A stretch of 64,000 nucleotides of DNA from Butyrivibrio sp. NC3005 (GTDB lineage Bacteria; Bacillota; Clostridia; Lachnospirales; Lachnospiraceae), in contig NZ_AUKC01000004.1 of the NCBI RefSeq assembly GCF_000424545.1, positions 1 to 64,000 of the forward strand, read 5' to 3'. Shown piece after piece: positions 1 through 55,048 of this stretch. The notes beneath the pieces were generated by a model. It had not been told where the DNA came from. It ran no database searches and worked only from the letters and a program-made list of their open reading frames with translations. Both the position numbers and the translations under genes were made by a program. Position 1 is the stretch's first letter, and each line of letters starts with the position of its first letter.

Positions 1-91
1 GTGAGAACAAAAGTCAAGCGGCAAACTGGTCCAAGGCGAAGCCTTTTTAAATGGCCAGTTTGCGTAGTTTTTGGAACGTAGTGACAAAAAA
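1..91 (+). repeat. Dispersed repeat A, copy 1 (5' end cut by window)
   Basis: This is one of three copies of a non-coding repeat, with others at 3602-3705 (minus) and 48555-48654 (plus). The core pairs GCAAACTGG (21-29) with CCAGTTTGC (55-63). A smaller hairpin, AAGGC-GAA-GCCTT (33-45), sits inside that stem. The other copies begin with GAGTTTCGTGAG, so this copy probably starts just before the window. It runs directly into repeat B copy 1 through the sequence CTATAGG. No convincing reading frame lies in it. Confidence 0.85.
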
Positions 92-220
92 CTATAGGTT
101 CTTGTTTTCATCAGGGAAATCAAGAACCGTACCAGACCAAAATTCGTCGTTAAGACAAATTTTGTCCTGCGAAGCAGGATTCTTGCTGATAATAATCATA
201 AATCTCAGCAAGAAGTCATA
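92..220 (+). repeat. Dispersed repeat B, copy 1
   Basis: This copy of the 127-nt repeat family runs from CTATAGG to AAGTCATA and follows repeat A without a gap. Four hairpins in a row can be drawn. The first stem here is GGTTCTTG/CAAGAACC, where most copies have GGTTATTG/CAATAACC. This paired change suggests selection on a fold. The short frame that crosses it is a by-product of the repeat and recurs in other copies. Confidence 0.9.
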
Positions 221-470: not shown

Positions 471-544
471 AATCGATGCTCTATGTTTTTTCTGACTTTA
501 CAAAACATAGATTTAAATATCTAAACGGAAGGGAATCCATCTAT

Positions 545-2119
545 ATGTTCAGTACTGTAACTTCTGGTGCTATTCACGGCATCCACAGTTATCTAATGCA
601 AGTCGAAGTCGATGTTTCAAATGGTCTGCCATCTTTTACTATGGTTGGTCTACCGGGAGCTGAAGTAAGAGAAGCTTCTGAAAGAGTAAAAGTTGCTTTG
701 AAAAACTGTGAAATCTGTCTCCCACCTTCGCATATCACCATAAATCTGTCTCCAGCTGACATTCATAAAGAAGGTGTTACTATTGATTTGCCTGTTGCAA
801 TCGGAATACTGGTTTCAAGTGGCAAAATTCCTCAAAGATGCATTGAAAATACACTTATTATCGGTCAATTGGCACTTAACGGGGATGTTAAGGGCGTAAG
901 AGGCGTTCTTCCAATCGTTCAGATGGCAGTTGATCATGGAATAAAACGTTGTATCCTACCTATCGAAAATGTCTATGAAGGTGCTGTTCTAAGCTCTCAA
1001 ATTGATATTATTGGTGTAAAAAATCTTATCGAATGTATCAATTACCTTAAAGCTGATGATTCTGAAAAAAATAGTATTATCTCTCCTACTCTCATTGATA
1101 TTTCAAATCTTTTTGAACAAAACACTGAGGAAGACAATCTGGATTTTAAAGATATTAATGGTCAGTCTGCGTTAAAAAGAGCCATGGAGATAGCTGCAGC
1201 TGGTTTTCATCACGTACTTATGGTAGGACCTCCAGGTACAGGCAAAAGCATGATTGCAAAACGTTTTCCAACTATCATGCCTCCTTTGACAAAAGAGGAA
1301 AGTCTTGAAGTTTCAACTATCTATTCTGTTGCAGGATTAATGAAACCTAAGCAGCCCCTTATTACGAAACGTCCTTTCAAAGCACCTCACCATTCAATTA
1401 CTCCTTCTGCACTGACTGGTGGCGGCAAAATTCCACAGCCTGGTGTCATATCTTTAGCTCACAGAGGTGTTTTATTTCTTGATGAACTTGCTGAATTCAA
1501 CAGAACTACTCTCGATTTATTGAGACAACCTCTAGAAGATCATGAAGTTAATATTGCCAGACTAGGCGGAACTTTTACTTATCCAGCCAATCTGATGCTT
1601 CTTGGCGCAATGAATCCATGTCCATGCGGATATTATCCTGATAGAGGCAAATGCAGATGCTCTGAAAAAGAAATAAGAAATTACATGAGTCACATTTCCG
1701 GTCCAATTCTAGATAGAATAGACATCTGCGTTGAAGCTCCCCGCATAGATTATAGCGACCTTGCAGGAAGCGGAACTGTCAATGAATCCAGCTCTCAAAT
1801 AAGAGACAGGGTTCTTAAAGCAAGAAAAATACAAGAAGAAAGATTTAAGGACTCCTCTATAAAATTCAATAGCGAAATGAGTCCCTCTGATATTAGAAAA
1901 TTTTGCATACTTGGTTCAAATGAGCAAAATCTTTTAGAACAAATCTACAAAACTTTTGACCTCTCAGCAAGATCTTATCATAGACTTATCAAACTATCAC
2001 GAACAATCGCTGATCTTGATAATTCAGAAAAGATTCTATCTCACCATATAACTGAAGCGGCTTGCTATCGCATGAATGATGCTATTTTCAATGTAAATAA
2101 AGAAAGTTTAAGAAAATGA
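545..2119 (+). CDS. comM: YifB/ComM family Mg-chelatase-like AAA+ ATPase
   Basis: This AAA+ ATPase belongs to the YifB family. Its proteobacterial member ComM is a hexameric branch-migration helicase that helps integrate DNA in natural transformation. The N-terminal ~190 residues form the ChlI-type domain. Walker A GPPGTGKS is near residue 228 and Walker B VLFLDE near 308. A cysteine cluster beginning NPCPCGYY (near 357) and the family C-terminal domain follow. At 524 aa it is close to the usual ~510. The start at 545 is chosen because GGAAGGGA precedes it, the protein then begins MFSTVTSGAI as relatives do, and the upstream ATG coincides with the likely transcription start. It overlaps dprA by 4 nt (ATGA), so the two are co-translated. 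The family is certain; a role in transformation here is inferred. Confidence 0.93.
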   Translation: MFSTVTSGAIHGIHSYLMQVEVDVSNGLPSFTMVGLPGAEVREASERVKVALKNCEICLPPSHITINLSPADIHKEGVTIDLPVAIGILVSSGKIPQRCIENTLIIGQLALNGDVKGVRGVLPIVQMAVDHGIKRCILPIENVYEGAVLSSQIDIIGVKNLIECINYLKADDSEKNSIISPTLIDISNLFEQNTEEDNLDFKDINGQSALKRAMEIAAAGFHHVLMVGPPGTGKSMIAKRFPTIMPPLTKEESLEVSTIYSVAGLMKPKQPLITKRPFKAPHHSITPSALTGGGKIPQPGVISLAHRGVLFLDELAEFNRTTLDLLRQPLEDHEVNIARLGGTFTYPANLMLLGAMNPCPCGYYPDRGKCRCSEKEIRNYMSHISGPILDRIDICVEAPRIDYSDLAGSGTVNESSSQIRDRVLKARKIQEERFKDSSIKFNSEMSPSDIRKFCILGSNEQNLLEQIYKTFDLSARSYHRLIKLSRTIADLDNSEKILSHHITEAACYRMNDAIFNVNKESLRK

Positions 2120-3267
2120 TTAATGAAATAAAAGAAAAAATAGATTTTTATGCTTTGTTCTCTACTCCGGGTATAGGAAAAAAAGCAATGTTTCATCTTA
2201 TGGAACGTTATGCTAATCCTTCAACAGTCTGGAATATGGATGAAGAATCTGTAAAAAAGCTTTTCAAACCAAAACAGGCTGAAAAATTTCTTTCTTTCCG
2301 AAAAAACTTCGATCCTTTAAAAAGCTATGAGCATATGGAACAGCAGGGAATTAAAATGATTACATATCTTGACAAAGAATTCCCAAATAAATTAAAAAAT
2401 ATTCCTGACATGCCTTGTGCAATATTCGTAAAAGGAAGTCTTCCTGATCCCAATGCACCAAGTGTTGCAATAATTGGTGCCAGAATGTGCTCAGAGTATG
2501 GAAGATTTGAAGCAAGAGAATTTGGGTTGAAACTTGCAAGAGCAGGCATCCAGATTATAAGCGGTATGGCTCTTGGAATTGATGGCATTAGTCAAAAAGC
2601 AGCATTAAATGCAGGTGGGAAAACATTTGCTGTTCTTGGGAGCGGTGTTGATATATGTTATCCCTCTGAAAACATAGAAATTTATAATAAACTCGCAGAA
2701 AAAGATAGTAATGTTGGTGGACTTATTTCAGAATATCCTCCTGGAACCCCGCCTTCTTCTAGACTTTTTCCTCCAAGGAACAGAATTATCAGTGCTTTGT
2801 CAGACATTGTACTAGTCATTGAAGCAAGGAAAAAATCCGGCACTTTAATTACTGTTGATATGGCTCTTGAGCAAGGAAGAGAAGTATTCGCTGTTCCTGG
2901 TCGAATAACTGATAGATTAAGTGATGGATGCAACTATCTTATTAAACAGGGATCTGGAATTGCTCTTTCGCCTGAAGATATTATCAATGAATTTTCATAT
3001 TGCACAAACACAGCTAAAGCATCATGTAACTCTTTACAAAACAGTAGTAAAGAAATATCACTTCCGAAGATTCCTCTAAATGAACACGAGAAAAAAATCT
3101 TCTCTGTTCTGGATATAAATCCAAAAAACAGCGCAGATATAATTGCAGATTTGAATAGAAAAGGTGATGCAATATCTCCTGAAATAGTCATGCAGAACCT
3201 CACTATGATGGAATTAAAAGGGATTATAAAATCCAGCGGATCAAACTATTTCATCACGCTGGATTAA
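2116..3267 (+). CDS. dprA: DNA processing protein DprA
   Basis: DprA protects incoming single-stranded DNA and loads RecA on it during transformation. An N-terminal helical SAM-like region (~1-60) is followed by the Rossmann-type DNA-binding fold (~110-310). Hallmarks are GSGVDICYP, the SEYPPGTPP stretch, FPPRNRIISALS and the SGTLITVDMALEQGR segment. The C-terminal ~65 residues look like the DprA winged helix. The length of 383 aa is normal. It starts inside the comM stop codon. In many Firmicutes topA follows dprA; here only repeat B copy 2 follows, 16 nt after the stop. Confidence 0.95.
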   Translation: MINEIKEKIDFYALFSTPGIGKKAMFHLMERYANPSTVWNMDEESVKKLFKPKQAEKFLSFRKNFDPLKSYEHMEQQGIKMITYLDKEFPNKLKNIPDMPCAIFVKGSLPDPNAPSVAIIGARMCSEYGRFEAREFGLKLARAGIQIISGMALGIDGISQKAALNAGGKTFAVLGSGVDICYPSENIEIYNKLAEKDSNVGGLISEYPPGTPPSSRLFPPRNRIISALSDIVLVIEARKKSGTLITVDMALEQGREVFAVPGRITDRLSDGCNYLIKQGSGIALSPEDIINEFSYCTNTAKASCNSLQNSSKEISLPKIPLNEHEKKIFSVLDINPKNSADIIADLNRKGDAISPEIVMQNLTMMELKGIIKSSGSNYFITLD

Positions 3268-3282
3268 AAATTAACAGAAAAT

Positions 3283-3410
3283 TATAGGTTATTGTTTTCA
3301 TCAGGAAAATCAATAACCGTACCAGACCAAAATTTGTCGTTAAGACAAATTTTGTCCTGCAAAGCAGGATTCTTGCTGATGATTATCCTAAATCTCAGCA
3401 AGAAGTCATA
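3283..3410 (+). repeat. Dispersed repeat B, copy 2 (reference copy)
   Basis: This is the cleanest copy. Stem I is GGTTATTG (3287-3294) with CAATAACC (3311-3318), extended inward by TTTTC/GAAAA. Stem II is AAAATTTGTC (3329-3338) with GACAAATTTT (3344-3353). Stem III is TCCTGC-AAA-GCAGGA (3355-3369). Stem IV is TTCTTGCTGA (3370-3379) with TCAGCAAGAA (3395-3404). Stems I and IV lie at the two ends, as in hairpin-ended mobile repeats. No product is encoded. Confidence 0.92.
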
Positions 3411-3431
3411 CTTTTTTGTTTTATATAATCT

Positions 3432-3573
3432 GTTCTGATGTTTGTATATTTCGTCGCAGACACGCTTTCGCTTGATTATAAACGTAATGGTTCGTAATGC
3501 GCTAAAAAAACAGCGCATAAGAACCAACGTTTATAAACAGTTCTGCTCATGAAATATTACAAGCCATCAGAAC
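3432..3573. repeat. Long imperfect inverted repeat between repeats B2 and A2
   Basis: The outer arms are GTTCTGATG (3432-3440) and CATCAGAAC (3565-3573). The inner arms are TATAAACGT (3477-3485)/ACGTTTATA (3527-3535), GGTTC (3489-3493)/GAACC (3521-3525) and ATGCGCT (3497-3503)/AGCGCAT (3512-3518), around an A-rich 8-nt loop. It is far longer than a normal terminator and lacks a strong T-run. A frame crosses it but has no ribosome site and no recognisable product. Confidence 0.75.
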
Positions 3574-3601
3574 TCATCTAATTAGTTAAAATAACAAAAA
3601 C

Positions 3602-3705
3602 CTATAGATTTTTGTCACTGTTTTCCAAAAACTACGCAAACTGGCCATTTGAAAAGGCTTCGCCTTGGACCAGTTTGCCACTTGACTTTTGTTCTCACGA
3701 AACTC
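3602..3705 (-). repeat. Dispersed repeat A, copy 2
   Basis: On the minus strand it reads from GAGTTTCGTGAG to GACAAAAATCTATAGG, with the same nested hairpin as copy 1. It faces repeat B copy 2 across the long inverted repeat. Its first bases also form part of the hairpin at 3699-3723. Confidence 0.9.
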
Positions 3706-3723
3706 GCAGTAAATGCGAGTTTC
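3699..3723. repeat. Perfect 10-bp hairpin at the edge of repeat A2
   Basis: GAAACTCGCA-GTAAA-TGCGAGTTTC is a perfect stem. On neither strand is it followed by a clear T-run. Just beyond it, 3739-3756 holds the palindrome AAGAAGTCATGACTTCTT, which resembles the right end of repeat B (AAGAAGTCATA) with an inverted partner. Confidence 0.6.
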
Positions 3724-3753
3724 TGATTATAAGTGACAAGAAGTCATGACTTC

Positions 3754-6873: not shown

Positions 6874-7000
6874 ATAGGTTATTGTTTTCATCAGGAAAAT
6901 CAATAACCGTACCAGACCAAAATTTGTCGCCAAGAGAAATTTTGTCCTACAAAGCAGTATTCTTGCTGGTGATTATCCTAAATCTCAGCAAGAAGTCATA
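6874..7000 (+). repeat. Dispersed repeat B, copy 3 (degenerate) at prophage edge
   Basis: Stem I and stem IV are kept, but stem II (GTC against GAG) and stem III (TCCTAC against GCAGTA) have lost pairing. Its right end, GTCATA, abuts the first base of phage-derived sequence, so it marks the left border of the prophage remnant. Confidence 0.88.
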
Positions 7001-7005
7001 AAAAT

Positions 7006-7033
7006 AAGAGCATCTAATTTCTCAGATACTCTT
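7006..7033 (-). terminator. Terminator after the gp10 pseudogene
   Basis: AAGAGTATCT pairs with AGATGCTCTT (one G-U), followed by ATTTTTA on the minus strand. It is nearly identical to the terminator at 8467-8494 and was duplicated with it. Confidence 0.7.
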
Positions 7034-7056
7034 ACCTATATGTTAGAACATAAATT

Positions 7057-7309
7057 TTAGCCTTTTAAATTATCCCTAATGATTTGGTTGTATGTTGATT
7101 TGTTTTTTCAATCGCTTTTTTAAGGAAATGCGAAGGTTGCATACCAGAAGTTTTATGCCATTCGCCTTTACTGTCTTTAAATACCCAAGGTGTTTTCCAA
7201 AAATTTAAAGCCGCTTCACGTTGTGAAAACAATCCGCACTCTGTTAAAGCTTTCTTTGCTTGTTCTTACAAGGCTCTTTTAACTTCTTCGCTGTTATATC
7301 GAAATCCAT
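7057..7309 (-). pseudogene. Truncated duplicate of the gp10-like gene
   Basis: Both ends match the intact gp10 gene at 8518-8928 closely. Three lesions are visible: a 7-nt shortening near the start that shifts the frame, a TTGGAA to TTGTAA change that creates a stop, and a deletion of about 150 nt. The deletion joins two GGTGTTTTCC-type sequences that are apart in the intact gene. The ribosome site AGGAGCA is kept. It cannot make a full protein. Confidence 0.85.
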
Positions 7310-8324: not shown

Positions 8325-8466
8325 TTTCTTTGAATCTCCTTTTCTTCGGTGTGATTTTCTTTACACATTCGATTCTGTGTTTCTCCGAAATTCGGTTCTT
8401 TGAATCTCTGTTTAACATTTAAACATGCTTTTAAGGCTCACTTAGACAAACTTTTGCATAAAAAAT

Positions 8467-8494
8467 AAGAGCATCTAATTTCTTAGATACTCTT
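8467..8494 (-). terminator. Terminator after the intact gp10-like gene
   Basis: AAGAGTATCT/AGATGCTCTT with an 8-nt loop is followed by a T-rich run on the minus strand. It is the parent or sister of the copy at 7006-7033. The stretch 8325-8466 between it and the scaffold gene holds no gene that I can see. Confidence 0.7.
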
Positions 8495-8517
8495 ACCTAT
8501 ATGTTAGAACATAAATT

Positions 8518-8928
8518 TTAGCCTTTTAAATTATCCCTAATGATTTGGTTGTATGTTGATTTGTTTTCTTCGATTGCCTTTTTAAGAAAATGCGAAGGTT
8601 GCATACCAGAAGTTTTATGCCATTCGCCTTTACTGTCTTTAAATACCCATGGTGTTTTCCTGCCACCATTAGCATATATACCCGTTCCAAACTCAACATA
8701 AGGTGCATATTCCATGTTAGAAACAATATACACGCATCCTTCGTTCATATCAACCTTAGTGGCGATACTATTACGAAGTGGACCTGTATAAATTCGCCTT
8801 GGTGTTTTTCCAAGATTTAAAGCCGCTTCACGTTGTGCAAACAATACGCACTCTGTTAAGGCTTTCTTTACTTGTTCTTCCAAGGCTCTTTTTACTTCTT
8901 CACTGTTATCCTTGAAATCAAACTCCAT
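8518..8928 (-). CDS. HK97 gp10-like head-tail joining protein
   Basis: The 136-aa protein has the family pattern: an N-terminal helix, YTGPLRNSIATKV, then YAPYVEFGTGIYANGGRKTPW and a C-terminal PSHFLKKAIEEN. HK97 gp10 proteins complete the head-tail connection in siphophages. The gene is intact and has a degraded copy at 7057-7309. It follows the 53-aa gene at 9005-9166. It belongs to a remnant, so activity is doubtful. Confidence 0.8.
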   Translation of the reverse strand: MEFDFKDNSEEVKRALEEQVKKALTECVLFAQREAALNLGKTPRRIYTGPLRNSIATKVDMNEGCVYIVSNMEYAPYVEFGTGIYANGGRKTPWVFKDSKGEWHKTSGMQPSHFLKKAIEENKSTYNQIIRDNLKG

Positions 8929-9166: not shown

Positions 9167-10302
9167 GTTATCACTTCCTTTACTAATTCAATCAATCTGA
9201 TATCATCTATTGCTTTTTTATCATCTAGCACCATAACATCTGCAATAAGTTCATTCAAATTTTCATTTCTATTAAATGCTTTTTGCGCATTTTTGCTAAT
9301 ATTTTTTTGAATATACTTTCTTTCATACACTTGTTGTTCTTTTACATATTTCCGTAAATCGTTTTCTAACTCTTGCTTAATTATATCACTGTCTTTCCCA
9401 GATGATACAGAAAGTGAAAAAATTTTATCCCAATGTTGTTTATGATACATTTCATGTTTTAACGTTTCTTCTGCATTTTTTGCGGCATAATAACCATTAT
9501 TAACTTCTTGTTTGATGTATTTTGCATCACTAAGTTTGCTATTAACATATAAACTATTATCCCCATGGTCATATGCGGCTACAAATGAAGAATTTCTTAA
9601 AATCACAACATTATCTACTTCTTTTAACAATGGAATATTTTTCTTGAATTTTTCAATCATATTAACTGTTTCTATTGTATCTTTAGAATAATGCTGAACA
9701 TAAACATTATCAAAGCCTTTTAGCTTATAACCTTTAACTTTTAAAGAACCAGAAGAAAAGTTTTTAGCCATTCCCATGTTGTCTACACTTGCTTCTTTTT
9801 CTTCAAGCCATTCTCTATATGATTCTACTGTGTTTTCTGTCCTCTTCTGGTTATATTTCGGCATATAAGCCTGCATTGTGCATCTGCAATTATAAACTTC
9901 TGATGGTGAGCCGTTAGGATCAGCAGGGAAGCGCAAGCCATTAGGAAATGTTTCTTCGTTTCCAACTGTTACTCCATCAAGTGCCGCATGTGAATCTCTT
10001 ACCCTTGCATCACCTGCTGTTATCCATTCCTTTTGCAGTTCTATTCCCATGCTAGCCGCATCATTAAAAGTTTTCTGTCTGCCGCCATTCTGTGCACCTG
10101 TCATTGCTGTTCGTGCGTTTCTTATGGCACTGTTTCTGTTCATATCGGTTACATGCTGAAACGAATCTGCAAGTTCTTTCAAAGTCTTGCCTTGCACAAT
10201 AGCACTTGTAAGAGCATTGTTAAGCTTCTTTTTGTTCCAAACAACATCCTTCTTTTCGTTTATTTTCAAATTTTTCGGGAACAAGTCGGGTTCTTCTAGC
10301 AT
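9163..10302 (-). CDS. MuF head-morphogenesis protein with C-terminal zincin-like domain (N-truncated)
   Basis: Residues ~50-145 hold the Phage_Mu_F (SPP1 gp7-like) core: SAIRNARTAMTGAQNGGR, then GDARVRDSHAALDG, ending VYNCRCTM. Normal MuF proteins carry 150-200 more N-terminal residues, which are missing here. The region after ~180 is unlike capsid parts. It contains HEMYH (283-287), the HExxH zinc-protease motif, with NELIAD about 65 residues later as a possible third ligand. This is the layout of MuF polymorphic toxins of Firmicute phages, in which an effector replaces the C-terminus. The truncation makes packaging of the effector unlikely now. Confidence 0.75.
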   Translation of the reverse strand: MLEEPDLFPKNLKINEKKDVVWNKKKLNNALTSAIVQGKTLKELADSFQHVTDMNRNSAIRNARTAMTGAQNGGRQKTFNDAASMGIELQKEWITAGDARVRDSHAALDGVTVGNEETFPNGLRFPADPNGSPSEVYNCRCTMQAYMPKYNQKRTENTVESYREWLEEKEASVDNMGMAKNFSSGSLKVKGYKLKGFDNVYVQHYSKDTIETVNMIEKFKKNIPLLKEVDNVVILRNSSFVAAYDHGDNSLYVNSKLSDAKYIKQEVNNGYYAAKNAEETLKHEMYHKQHWDKIFSLSVSSGKDSDIIKQELENDLRKYVKEQQVYERKYIQKNISKNAQKAFNRNENLNELIADVMVLDDKKAIDDIRLIELVKEVIT

Positions 10303-10553: not shown

Positions 10554-10624
10554 AGCAGATGACGGGAATCGAACCCGCCTCACCAGCTTGGGAAGCTAGT
10601 GTTCTACCGATGAACTACATCTGC
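10554..10624 (-). tRNA. tRNA-Gly (anticodon CCC)
   Basis: All arms can be drawn: acceptor GCAGATG/CATCTGC, D arm GTTC/GAAC, anticodon stem CTAGC/GCTGG with loop TTCCCAA, and T arm GCGGG/CCCGT around TTCGATT. The anticodon CCC reads GGG. The discriminator base is U, as expected for glycine. CCA is not encoded. The prophage remnant lies on its 3' side. Confidence 0.93.
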
Positions 10625-19080: not shown

Positions 19081-19207
19081 ATAGGTTATTGTTTTCATCA
19101 GGAAAATCAATAACCGTACCAGACCAAAATTTGTCGTTAAGACAAATTTTGTCCTGCAAAGCAGGATTCTTGCTGATGATTATCCTAAATCTCAGCAAGA
19201 AGTCATA
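19081..19207 (+). repeat. Dispersed repeat B, copy 4
   Basis: This copy is almost identical to copy 2, with all four stems intact (stem I GGTTATTG/CAATAACC). It lies between the start of the serine hydrolase and the 3' end of the DUF1275 gene. The frame starting inside it is not a gene. Confidence 0.92.
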
Positions 19208-41037: not shown

Positions 41038-41041
41038 ATTT

Positions 41042-41150
41042 TAGGATAATCATCAGCAAGAATCCTGCTTCGCAGGACAAAATTTGTCTTAACGACAAAT
41101 TTTGGTCTGGTACGGTTACCTGTTTTCCTGATGAAAACAATAACCTATAG
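41042..41150 (-). repeat. Dispersed repeat B, copy 5 (right end missing)
   Basis: On the minus strand it starts CTATAGG and keeps stems II and III. Stem I has changed on its right side (CAGGTAACC). The copy stops within stem IV, before CTCAGCAAGAAGTCATA. The break coincides with the prs terminator tail. Confidence 0.9.
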
Positions 41151-48554: not shown

Positions 48555-48654
48555 GAGTTTCGTGAGAACAAACGTCAAATTGTAAACTGATCCAAGGCGA
48601 AGCCTTTTTAACTGTCCGGTTTGCGTAGTTTTTCGGAACACAGCGACAAAAACT
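48555..48654 (+). repeat. Dispersed repeat A, copy 3
   Basis: It starts GAGTTTCGTGAGAAC and ends GACAAAAACTT. The main stem is GTAAACTG/CGGTTTGC, in which two base changes against copy 1 both give G-U pairs. The inner AAGGC-GAA-GCCTT hairpin is unchanged. It lies between rplS and the second lepB and is not followed by repeat B. Confidence 0.88.
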
Positions 48655-53983: not shown

Positions 53984-54111
53984 TATAGGTTCTTGTTTTC
54001 ATCAGGAAAATCAAGAACCGTACCAGACCAAAATTTGTCGTTAAGACAAATTTTGTCCTGCGAAGCAGGATTCTTGCTGATGATTATCCTAAATCTCAGC
54101 AAGAAGTCATA
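53984..54111 (+). repeat. Dispersed repeat B, copy 6
   Basis: All four stems are intact, with the GGTTCTTG/CAAGAACC form of stem I as in copy 1 and TGC-GAA-GCA in stem III. Its right end supplies the stop codon (TGA) of the AraC-type gene on the other strand. Confidence 0.92.
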
Positions 54112-55048
54112 CATAATTACCTTTTCTATCTAAAAAAACTCTTTCACAACTGTTTGCGCATTCATTTCCATATTCAGATGGAAGATGTCCTGTTTGTTTC
54201 TGAAATGCCTTGCAAAAAGAAGAATAATCTCTAAATCCCGATTCAAGTGAAGCTGTCATTGCTGGCATTCCAGATATAATCAAATCTCTTGCAAGAAGAA
54301 TTCTTTTTTCCATTATATACTGATGGACACTATATCCTGTTTCATTTTTAAAAACACGCATCATATGATACTTACTTATATAAAACCTGTCTGCTATCTG
54401 ATCAATTGATAAATCATTTCCAAGATTAGCACTTATGTAATCAATAATATCAATTACTTTTCGATTATATCTTGCTTTCTCCATAAAAGCATCCTTACAT
54501 GAAACACACGCTTCATTAAGCATAATTAATAGTCTTGCTAATATAATCTTACTTTTTAAACTCTGTGCAAAAGGCTCTTTACACGAATTTTGGGAACTGT
54601 TTAAGCATTCTTCCAGCTCCTGGAAACATTTAAGAAGAAAAGCCGAAGTAGCCGCATCAAAATGAACAACATTTGTTTTCTTTAAAGCAGCTATTTCAAA
54701 ACACTTTTTTAAAAGGTGTGTTTTTTTATCACCTCCGCCAAATTCTTCTATTTGGTCATATATTTCAGGTTTCAAATACAATATATATCTTTCGTATTTT
54801 GAACTATCTAATGCTTCAACACTGTGAATATTATTTTTGGGAACCAAAACAATATCATATGGTTTGAGATCATATTTACGACCTTCAATTGCATACGCGG
54901 CTTTTCCTTGCAAAAAAAACACAATTTTATCAAAATCATGATAATGCCAATCAGTCTGCACTTTTTTTGTCTCATTTATGTGGAAAAATTTGTAATCGCA
55001 ATTAAGATAACCTTTCTGCTCATAAGGAAGAGACGGATTAAAATCCAT
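54107..55048 (-). CDS. AraC family transcriptional regulator with cupin domain
   Basis: The N-terminal cupin sensor has TDWHYHDFDKIVFFLQGKA and an IVLVPKNNIHSVE segment. The C-terminal AraC domain has two HTH units (DLSIDQIADRFYISKYHMMR and TASLESGFRDYSSFCKAFQK). The gene ends four bases inside repeat B copy 6, so the last residues may be foreign to the original protein. Target genes are unknown; an inverted repeat at 55078-55119 lies before the start. Confidence 0.9.
   Translation of the reverse strand: MDFNPSLPYEQKGYLNCDYKFFHINETKKVQTDWHYHDFDKIVFFLQGKAAYAIEGRKYDLKPYDIVLVPKNNIHSVEALDSSKYERYILYLKPEIYDQIEEFGGGDKKTHLLKKCFEIAALKKTNVVHFDAATSAFLLKCFQELEECLNSSQNSCKEPFAQSLKSKIILARLLIMLNEACVSCKDAFMEKARYNRKVIDIIDYISANLGNDLSIDQIADRFYISKYHMMRVFKNETGYSVHQYIMEKRILLARDLIISGMPAMTASLESGFRDYSSFCKAFQKQTGHLPSEYGNECANSCERVFLDRKGNYV

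Follow-up and report, generated by a model that had tools for sequence, protein, structure and literature searches.

Bacterial genomes commonly carry small folded repeats, and what moves them is often no more than a guess. REP and REPIN elements, which occur with RAYT proteins, are hairpin units, single or combined, that are dispersed between genes. The crossover sites of serine recombinases, such as res, hix, and the sites of IS607, are composed of a pair of arms, inverted relative to each other, that flank a core of 2 bp, and small serine recombinases act with a 2-nt overhang. The closest known kind to the element described here is that of the MITE/BOX-type repeats, and the nearest published examples among those checked are the pneumococcal BOX, RUP, and SPRITE elements; BOX is described there as modular, and both BOX and RUP as having target duplications along with inverted repeats at their termini (PMC3049150).

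Here we describe element A, a folded, multicopy repeat in the genome of Butyrivibrio sp. NC3005. We consider it probable, at roughly 0.6, that A is a non-autonomous mobile element, one member of a set of families with shared ends, and that it is mobilized by an enzyme that acts in trans and has an overlap of 2 bp, AT.

Copies and distribution of element A

The window, that is, the whole 64,000-nt stretch of DNA that was analysed, contains six copies of element A, five complete and one truncated (Table 1). An initial reading of the letters by themselves (the sequence-only reading) had placed six copies here, and both the number and the coordinates hold: five plus-strand copies and one minus-strand copy (approximately 41040-41149) were recovered. 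From one AT to the other it spans 126 nt (124 nt plus the flanking AT), and comparison with a 3279-3411 reference returned the copies near 89, 6869, 19076, and 53980 at 91-98% identity. As had been reported, all copies begin with (T)ATAGG and five end with GTCATA; copy 5 continues past ...TATCCTAAA as unrelated sequence and the GTCAT end is missing. The proposal that each copy forms four hairpins in a row stands for most copies, but not for all, since copy 5 has neither the 3' arm of stem IV nor the right end; in copy 3 the minimum-energy fold differs, with mismatches in stems II and III.

Table 1. Positions in the window of element A copies, stems of the reference copy, and elements of the related families B and C.
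Feature	Position	Strand	Remarks
Element A, copy 1	94..219	+	92-220 in the sequence-only reading
Element A, copy 2 (reference)	3284..3409	+	AT-AGG...GTC-AT with stems I-IV
Stem I, left end hairpin	3287..3318	+	TTATTG (outer arm) paired with CAATAA (inner arm); fold and covariation
Stems II and III	3325..3368 (about 3328-3354 and 3355-3369)	+	fold
Stem IV, right end hairpin	3370..3407	+	TTCTTGCTG...CAGCAAGAA, then GTC-AT; fold and covariation
Element A, copy 3	6874..6999	+	stems II and III weakened
Element A, copy 4	19081..19206	+	complete copy
Element A, copy 5	41040..41149	-	truncated; without 3' arm of stem IV and right end
Element A, copy 6	53985..54110	+	right end provides TGA stop of AraC-type gene 54107-55048 (-)
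Element B	1..95	-	cut by contig start; AT 94-95 common with A copy 1
Element C	3408..3605	-	198 nt, by difference: A+C+B = 464 nt, one AT per join
Element B	3604..3747	+	complete, 144 nt; ends as in A
Element B, partial	48555..48638	-	degenerate; AT ends not intact

The element is abundant in the host genome, an assembly of 3.87 Mb in 93 contigs. Its 17-nt 3' end has 177 matches with three or fewer mismatches (84 forward, 93 reverse) versus 11 for the reversed pattern (4 forward, 7 reverse), and BLAST with A returned at least 44 matches at 95-100% identity among the best 40 of 227 candidates scored. The first 1.165 Mb sampled hold 51 copies of A with a mean pairwise identity of 96%, divided 30 to 21 between the strands, and 28 copies of element B (described below) with a mean pairwise identity of 95%. 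When public genomes were scanned for TCCTGCNNNGCAGGATTCTTGC, at least 63 loci were returned; among the matches listed, 47 are element A or a piece of it, as judged from context by eye, and 16 are unrelated, and all 47 A loci among these lie in Butyrivibrio or Pseudobutyrivibrio records. Internal A sequence has BLAST matches in at least 7 of the 78 other genomes of the genus. In one of these, G060, the match covers 21 nt only, yet a related layout is present at its locus; in another, G020, the A locus matches one of Butyrivibrio sp. LC3010, including the flanks. Within the family, a covariance model of A had matches in 2 of 397 genomes, representing 2 of 334 genera; misses are likely in this search given its strict filters and the 8 candidates scored per genome.

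Searches for known relatives returned little. The single Rfam match in the window is a tRNA at 10554-10624 on the minus strand, with none on element A, and at E values up to 1 three loci gave three matches, all far under the curated cut-offs. The plasmids and phages searched held no match to the element. Neither B nor C was matched in 124 loci of other species, a set biased to A, Y1 genes, or one locus. Our literature search did not find an element of this kind in Butyrivibrio or Pseudobutyrivibrio, which does not prove its absence from print.

Gene context

Element A sits between genes. Among copies examined in the host genome none of 21 lies inside a crude open reading frame of at least 90 codons and 19 of 21 could be placed between two such frames; the corresponding counts elsewhere are 2 of 44 and 34 of 44. 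Tandem, convergent, and divergent gene pairs receive A roughly in proportion to background, with no clear preference for gene ends, and between co-directional genes the same and opposite strands are used 7 and 8 times in the host genome and 16 and 9 times elsewhere. The earlier remark that copies occur in both orientations and at 5' and 3' gene ends alike agrees with these counts, and the general picture of a folded repeat without genes of its own, scattered through intergenic DNA, is supported.

At the site of copy 6, the AraC/YlxM locus, the core of A is absent from all 29 relative loci that were fetched, 26 of which align on both sides; the exact empty junction was not readable in these 29 loci because their intergenic DNA is too diverged. 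The TGA stop of the AraC-type gene (54107-54109) comes from the element here, and the joined flanks suggest TAA before insertion. Several other observations concern the surroundings of the copies. The comM and dprA genes (476-3267) are flanked by piles of A, B, and C elements. The contig begins within a B element, and runs of N inside B copies indicate assembly trouble at these sites. Beside copy 3, 7000-7297 and 8461-8909 form a duplication approximately 1.46-1.6 kb apart, composed of three blocks at 91-99% identity, and one copy of the duplicated stretch is apparently broken.

Fold and covariation

The five complete copies fold as RNA with z scores of -7.1 to -10.1 and none of 200 shuffled sequences folds as well, which excludes chance as the source of the fold. 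As single-strand DNA, copy 2 gives z scores of -12.1 and -11.2 on its two strands, and the two strands of the element fold nearly equally well. Stem I of the window copies carries C-G in copies 1 and 6 where copies 2, 3, and 4 carry A-T, with pairing retained in all five, as first noted from the sequence; copy 5 has a further variant that can pair with two G-T pairs. Stem III, TCCTGCAAAGCAGGA, and the base and start of stem IV are almost invariant across copies and, hardly varying, are uninformative on pairing.

The four-hairpin layout recurs in other Butyrivibrio and in Pseudobutyrivibrio, where stems I and II are partly rewritten with pairing kept. We assembled 70 distinct copies of A from several species, reduced these to 29 non-redundant ones, and tested 38 pairs. 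At these pairs 92.8% of cells are paired; shuffles reach 81.5%, and sliding the partners leaves no more than 54.4% paired. Cells with double changes number 119 versus 40.3 in shuffles, distributed over 19 of the 38 pairs versus 11.6; the structure was derived from the same sequences, and related sequences can exceed shuffles in the absence of structure. For these reasons we give the visible stem swaps more weight than the counts. In three copies the inner part of stem I has TTTTT/AAAAA exchanged for AAAAA/TTTTT around the same loop. Stem II differs between lineages and is 77.6% paired in an alignment whose register is imperfect there, and the automatic consensus fold does not include it. The claim of a covarying stem is borne out across species, with pairing above that of shuffles. 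On the simplest reading, the stems are conserved because the element requires them either to move or to reside harmlessly in intergenic DNA.

Sister families share the ends of element A

The host genome contains further families with the end arms of A, namely B (144 nt), C (197-199 nt, with a long form of 283 nt), and single hairpins of 38 nt. All share the signature AT-NNN-TTNTTG...CAANAA-NNN-AT, each end being a 9-nt arm of roughly RNNTTNTTG beside AT, and their interiors are mostly different. Distances between ends peak at 38, 126, 144, and 197-199 nt and at sums of these minus 2 (250, 268, 321/322, and 464 nt), with 493 end pairs compared with 37 in a reversed-sequence control. The sums (250 = 126+126-2, 268 = 126+144-2, and 340 = 144+198-2) indicate that each join uses one AT. 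Three kinds of join occur: GTC-AT-AGG where elements are in tandem, CCT-AT-AGG where they are head to head, and GTC-AT-GAC where they are tail to tail. The repeat seen in the sequence-only reading is real, but that account overlooked the other families that have its ends (B, C, and the solo hairpins) and the rule of one AT per junction.

The end hairpins of A are formed by pairing between each outer arm and an inner arm in inverted orientation. C folds into one long closed stem instead of two end hairpins, so end hairpins are not universal among the families. The long form of C, represented by four copies, carries an extra block of approximately 80 nt with further hairpins. One host locus holds long C forms at 1793-2114 and 9423-9705, one of which ends in the left half of A; the families are exchanging interiors and ends, as in this C/A chimera. 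The 38-nt single hairpin has 7 matches in the host genome with three or fewer mismatches, and a Pseudobutyrivibrio locus holds a 46-nt copy of hairpin IV. The inner arm continues into CGTAC, with no AT at the end spacing, in 48 of 59 matches to hairpin I, and is followed by CTATA, the solo form, in 5 of the 59.

Insertion sites resemble the element ends

When the ends of A are located with anchors that do not require AT, the dinucleotide flanks 49 of 50 left ends and 47 of 48 right ends in the host genome; in other genomes it flanks 44 of 46 left ends and 42 of 49 right ends. The two-armed arrangement CAANAA-8 nt-TTNTTG occurs at 118 sites in 1.56 Mb, compared with 11-24 sites for gaps of 2-7 and 9-19 nt; judged by their triplets, these 118 sites are mostly joins between elements. 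AT lies in the middle of 108 of the 118, every other dinucleotide occurring at most twice, and the result is a palindromic site with a fixed 2-bp core, as expected of a serine-recombinase substrate.

Chromosomal targets were read from 74 ends that lie beside unique DNA, the other 102 of 176 ends being set aside as abutting another element. With ends chosen for having AT, a purine is present at +1 in 71 of 74 of these isolated flanks and A or T in 71 of 74 at each of +4 and +5. The pattern R..WW is found in 59 of 67 isolated flanks versus 1667 of 7906 nearby background AT sites. The arm motif of the element separates flanks from background, on the same AT-selected ends, with an AUC of 0.82 (0.74 for positions 4-9 alone), compared with 0.56 (p 0.04) for a reversed-arm control. 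Isolated insertion sites thus resemble degenerate palindromes of the element arms around AT. This signal is partial: the full arm, R..TT.TT, is seldom present in isolated flanks (5 of 67, compared with 2.2% of background).

Candidate mechanisms and enzymes

We propose that a recombinase or transposase acting in trans would bind arms in both element and target and exchange strands with a 2-bp AT overlap. Insertion would leave a good site at each element end, so that later copies would pile up there. Both a serine recombinase and a DDE transposase would fit the fixed 2-bp overlap, the common arms, and the joins in every orientation, and on sequences alone the two are not separable. We favor a small serine recombinase, with a DDE transposase that makes a 2-bp duplication as the main rival, since AT is fixed and the arms in the target look like the element ends. 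One form that such a system might take, which we put forward tentatively as possible but doubtful, is that of folded, gene-less cassettes that differ in their interiors but have a single serine-recombinase-type crossover site in common (AT core, RNNTTNTTG arms); a small serine recombinase encoded on the chromosome would move them in trans, and they would spread by integration into degenerate versions of the site on the chromosome, with integron-like pile-up. Under the DDE alternative, A would be a classic MITE mobilized by a transposase of IS30- or IS630-like logic, with AT as a 2-bp target-site duplication and not a crossover core. The short inverted terminal arms, the AT at either flank, the small size, the large number of copies, and the strong fold all suit this alternative, which predicts the same junctions and is compatible with a symmetric target preference; however, the duplication would need to be AT nearly always, the target arms would need to mimic the element's own ends, and the host genome has few DDE matches (rve 3, DDE_Tnp_1 2, and DDE_3 1, the last under its cut-off), none at a locus bounded by A-, B-, or C-type ends. 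We regard it as unlikely.

Two further explanations were suggested by the hairpins. Movement of a single strand by a Y1 transposase that recognizes end hairpins, as in REP/RAYT or IS200/IS605-type elements, would account for hairpins near both ends (stems I and IV) and for solo hairpins of 38 and 46 nt, and there are 10 Y1 matches in the host genome. A-, B-, or C-type ends do not bound any of these 10 loci or of the 18 examined in Pseudobutyrivibrio, and 19 of 29 Pseudobutyrivibrio genomes, not sorted by carriage of A, have no Y1 match. Single-strand insertion by Y1 enzymes is not expected to give sites with two-fold symmetry around AT, and the insertion sites have this symmetry, which disfavors a Y1 link; we consider this explanation very improbable, and these comparisons do not support the link to IS200/IS605-type elements raised in the sequence-only reading. 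Also very improbable, in our estimate, is that the repeat is a structured RNA or a cis-regulatory element under selection whose copies increased in number through their usefulness; a structured RNA, or a DNA fold with a role, had been suggested in the same reading. The strong fold, the compensatory changes across species, and the near invariance of stem III and the start of stem IV speak for it, but there is no Rfam match, both strands fold about equally well, strand relative to co-directional genes shows no clear preference (7/8 and 16/9, as above), and the copies pile up with families that have only ends in common with A. The preferred reading remains a mobile element moved in trans through a 2-bp AT overlap.

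PF00239 has 12 matches in the host genome, two of which, at L222 and L225, are small recombinases with a resolvase domain only by Pfam. Neither was retained as lying inside an element, since no end pair encloses either gene. At L222 a degenerate half of C adjoins the recombinase gene and A and B copies lie downstream; past the gene there is a long repetitive GGGGTTGGTGTTGG stretch beside repeated GATGGAACTGTTGATGG-type units. A protein search with L225 returned a very common family and no link to the element, so its presence counts as weak evidence. Segments between matching ends held genes that by eye are ordinary, and no enzyme gene was seen between matching ends in 1.56 Mb (approximately 40%) of the 3.87-Mb genome; end pairs at L159 and L284 look like chance and were left out of the element count. 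Several IS607-like copies, with a MerR-type domain and a resolvase domain, lie at contig ends (L226-L231). In five of these the left boundary is GG followed by TTAATAACTG, and we rejected them as a source because that boundary follows GG and not AT.

The loosest end pattern gives chance pairs around a Y1 gene at L069 (9-2047) and L234 (478-1143). These pairs do not coincide with the borders of the insertion sequences themselves; in L232-L234, L242, and L247 those borders lie near 1282 and 2078, and the end motif lies near 1918-1945. A longer gene of the Y1 family, which we take to be RAYT-like, is present in three Pseudobutyrivibrio genomes (L239, L240, and L244), and at L239 and L244 there is overlap between it and the beginning of a comM-type gene. 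The window, where comM and dprA occupy 476-3267, contains no gene of this longer type.

Comparison with known systems

We rate element A as MITE-like and unusual for its target rule of one AT with the same arms in element and target; its mover was not found in the part of the genome that was sampled. It is short, multicopy, and non-coding (126 nt, 51 sampled copies, 177 end matches) and has AT-NNN-TTNTTG at both ends as short and imperfect terminal inverted repeats. Like MITEs, as outlined in a review, A is small, gene-less, and folded, with inverted terminal arms and a short flanking repeat; unlike them, it has no parent with the same ends in the 1.56 Mb that were read, its flanking repeat is nearly always AT, and in A and B each end is itself a two-arm hairpin (PMC10969869). 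The words "serine" and "Butyrivibrio" are absent from the text of that review (PMC10969869).

Element A shares with REP and REPIN elements the use of hairpin units, single or combined, in intergenic positions, but none of the loci examined holds a Y1 or RAYT gene with these ends, and the AT sites are symmetric. Its sites are also like res, hix, and IS607 sites, in that the observed junctions would result if strands were exchanged across 2 bp; the IS607-like copies of the host differ in starting after GG and in having other ends, and no recombinase is tied to the sites of A. If the sites are still active, the genome would have more than 100 places for chromosome rearrangement.

The junction and target pattern, with one AT and two arms that are alike in element and target, is unusually clear and narrows the class of enzyme. 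As described, the pneumococcal BOX, RUP, and SPRITE elements are, like A, short, multicopy, gene-less, folded, and located between genes, and A differs from them as described there in having several families with one end signature, single-AT joins, and a target that resembles the element ends (PMC3049150).
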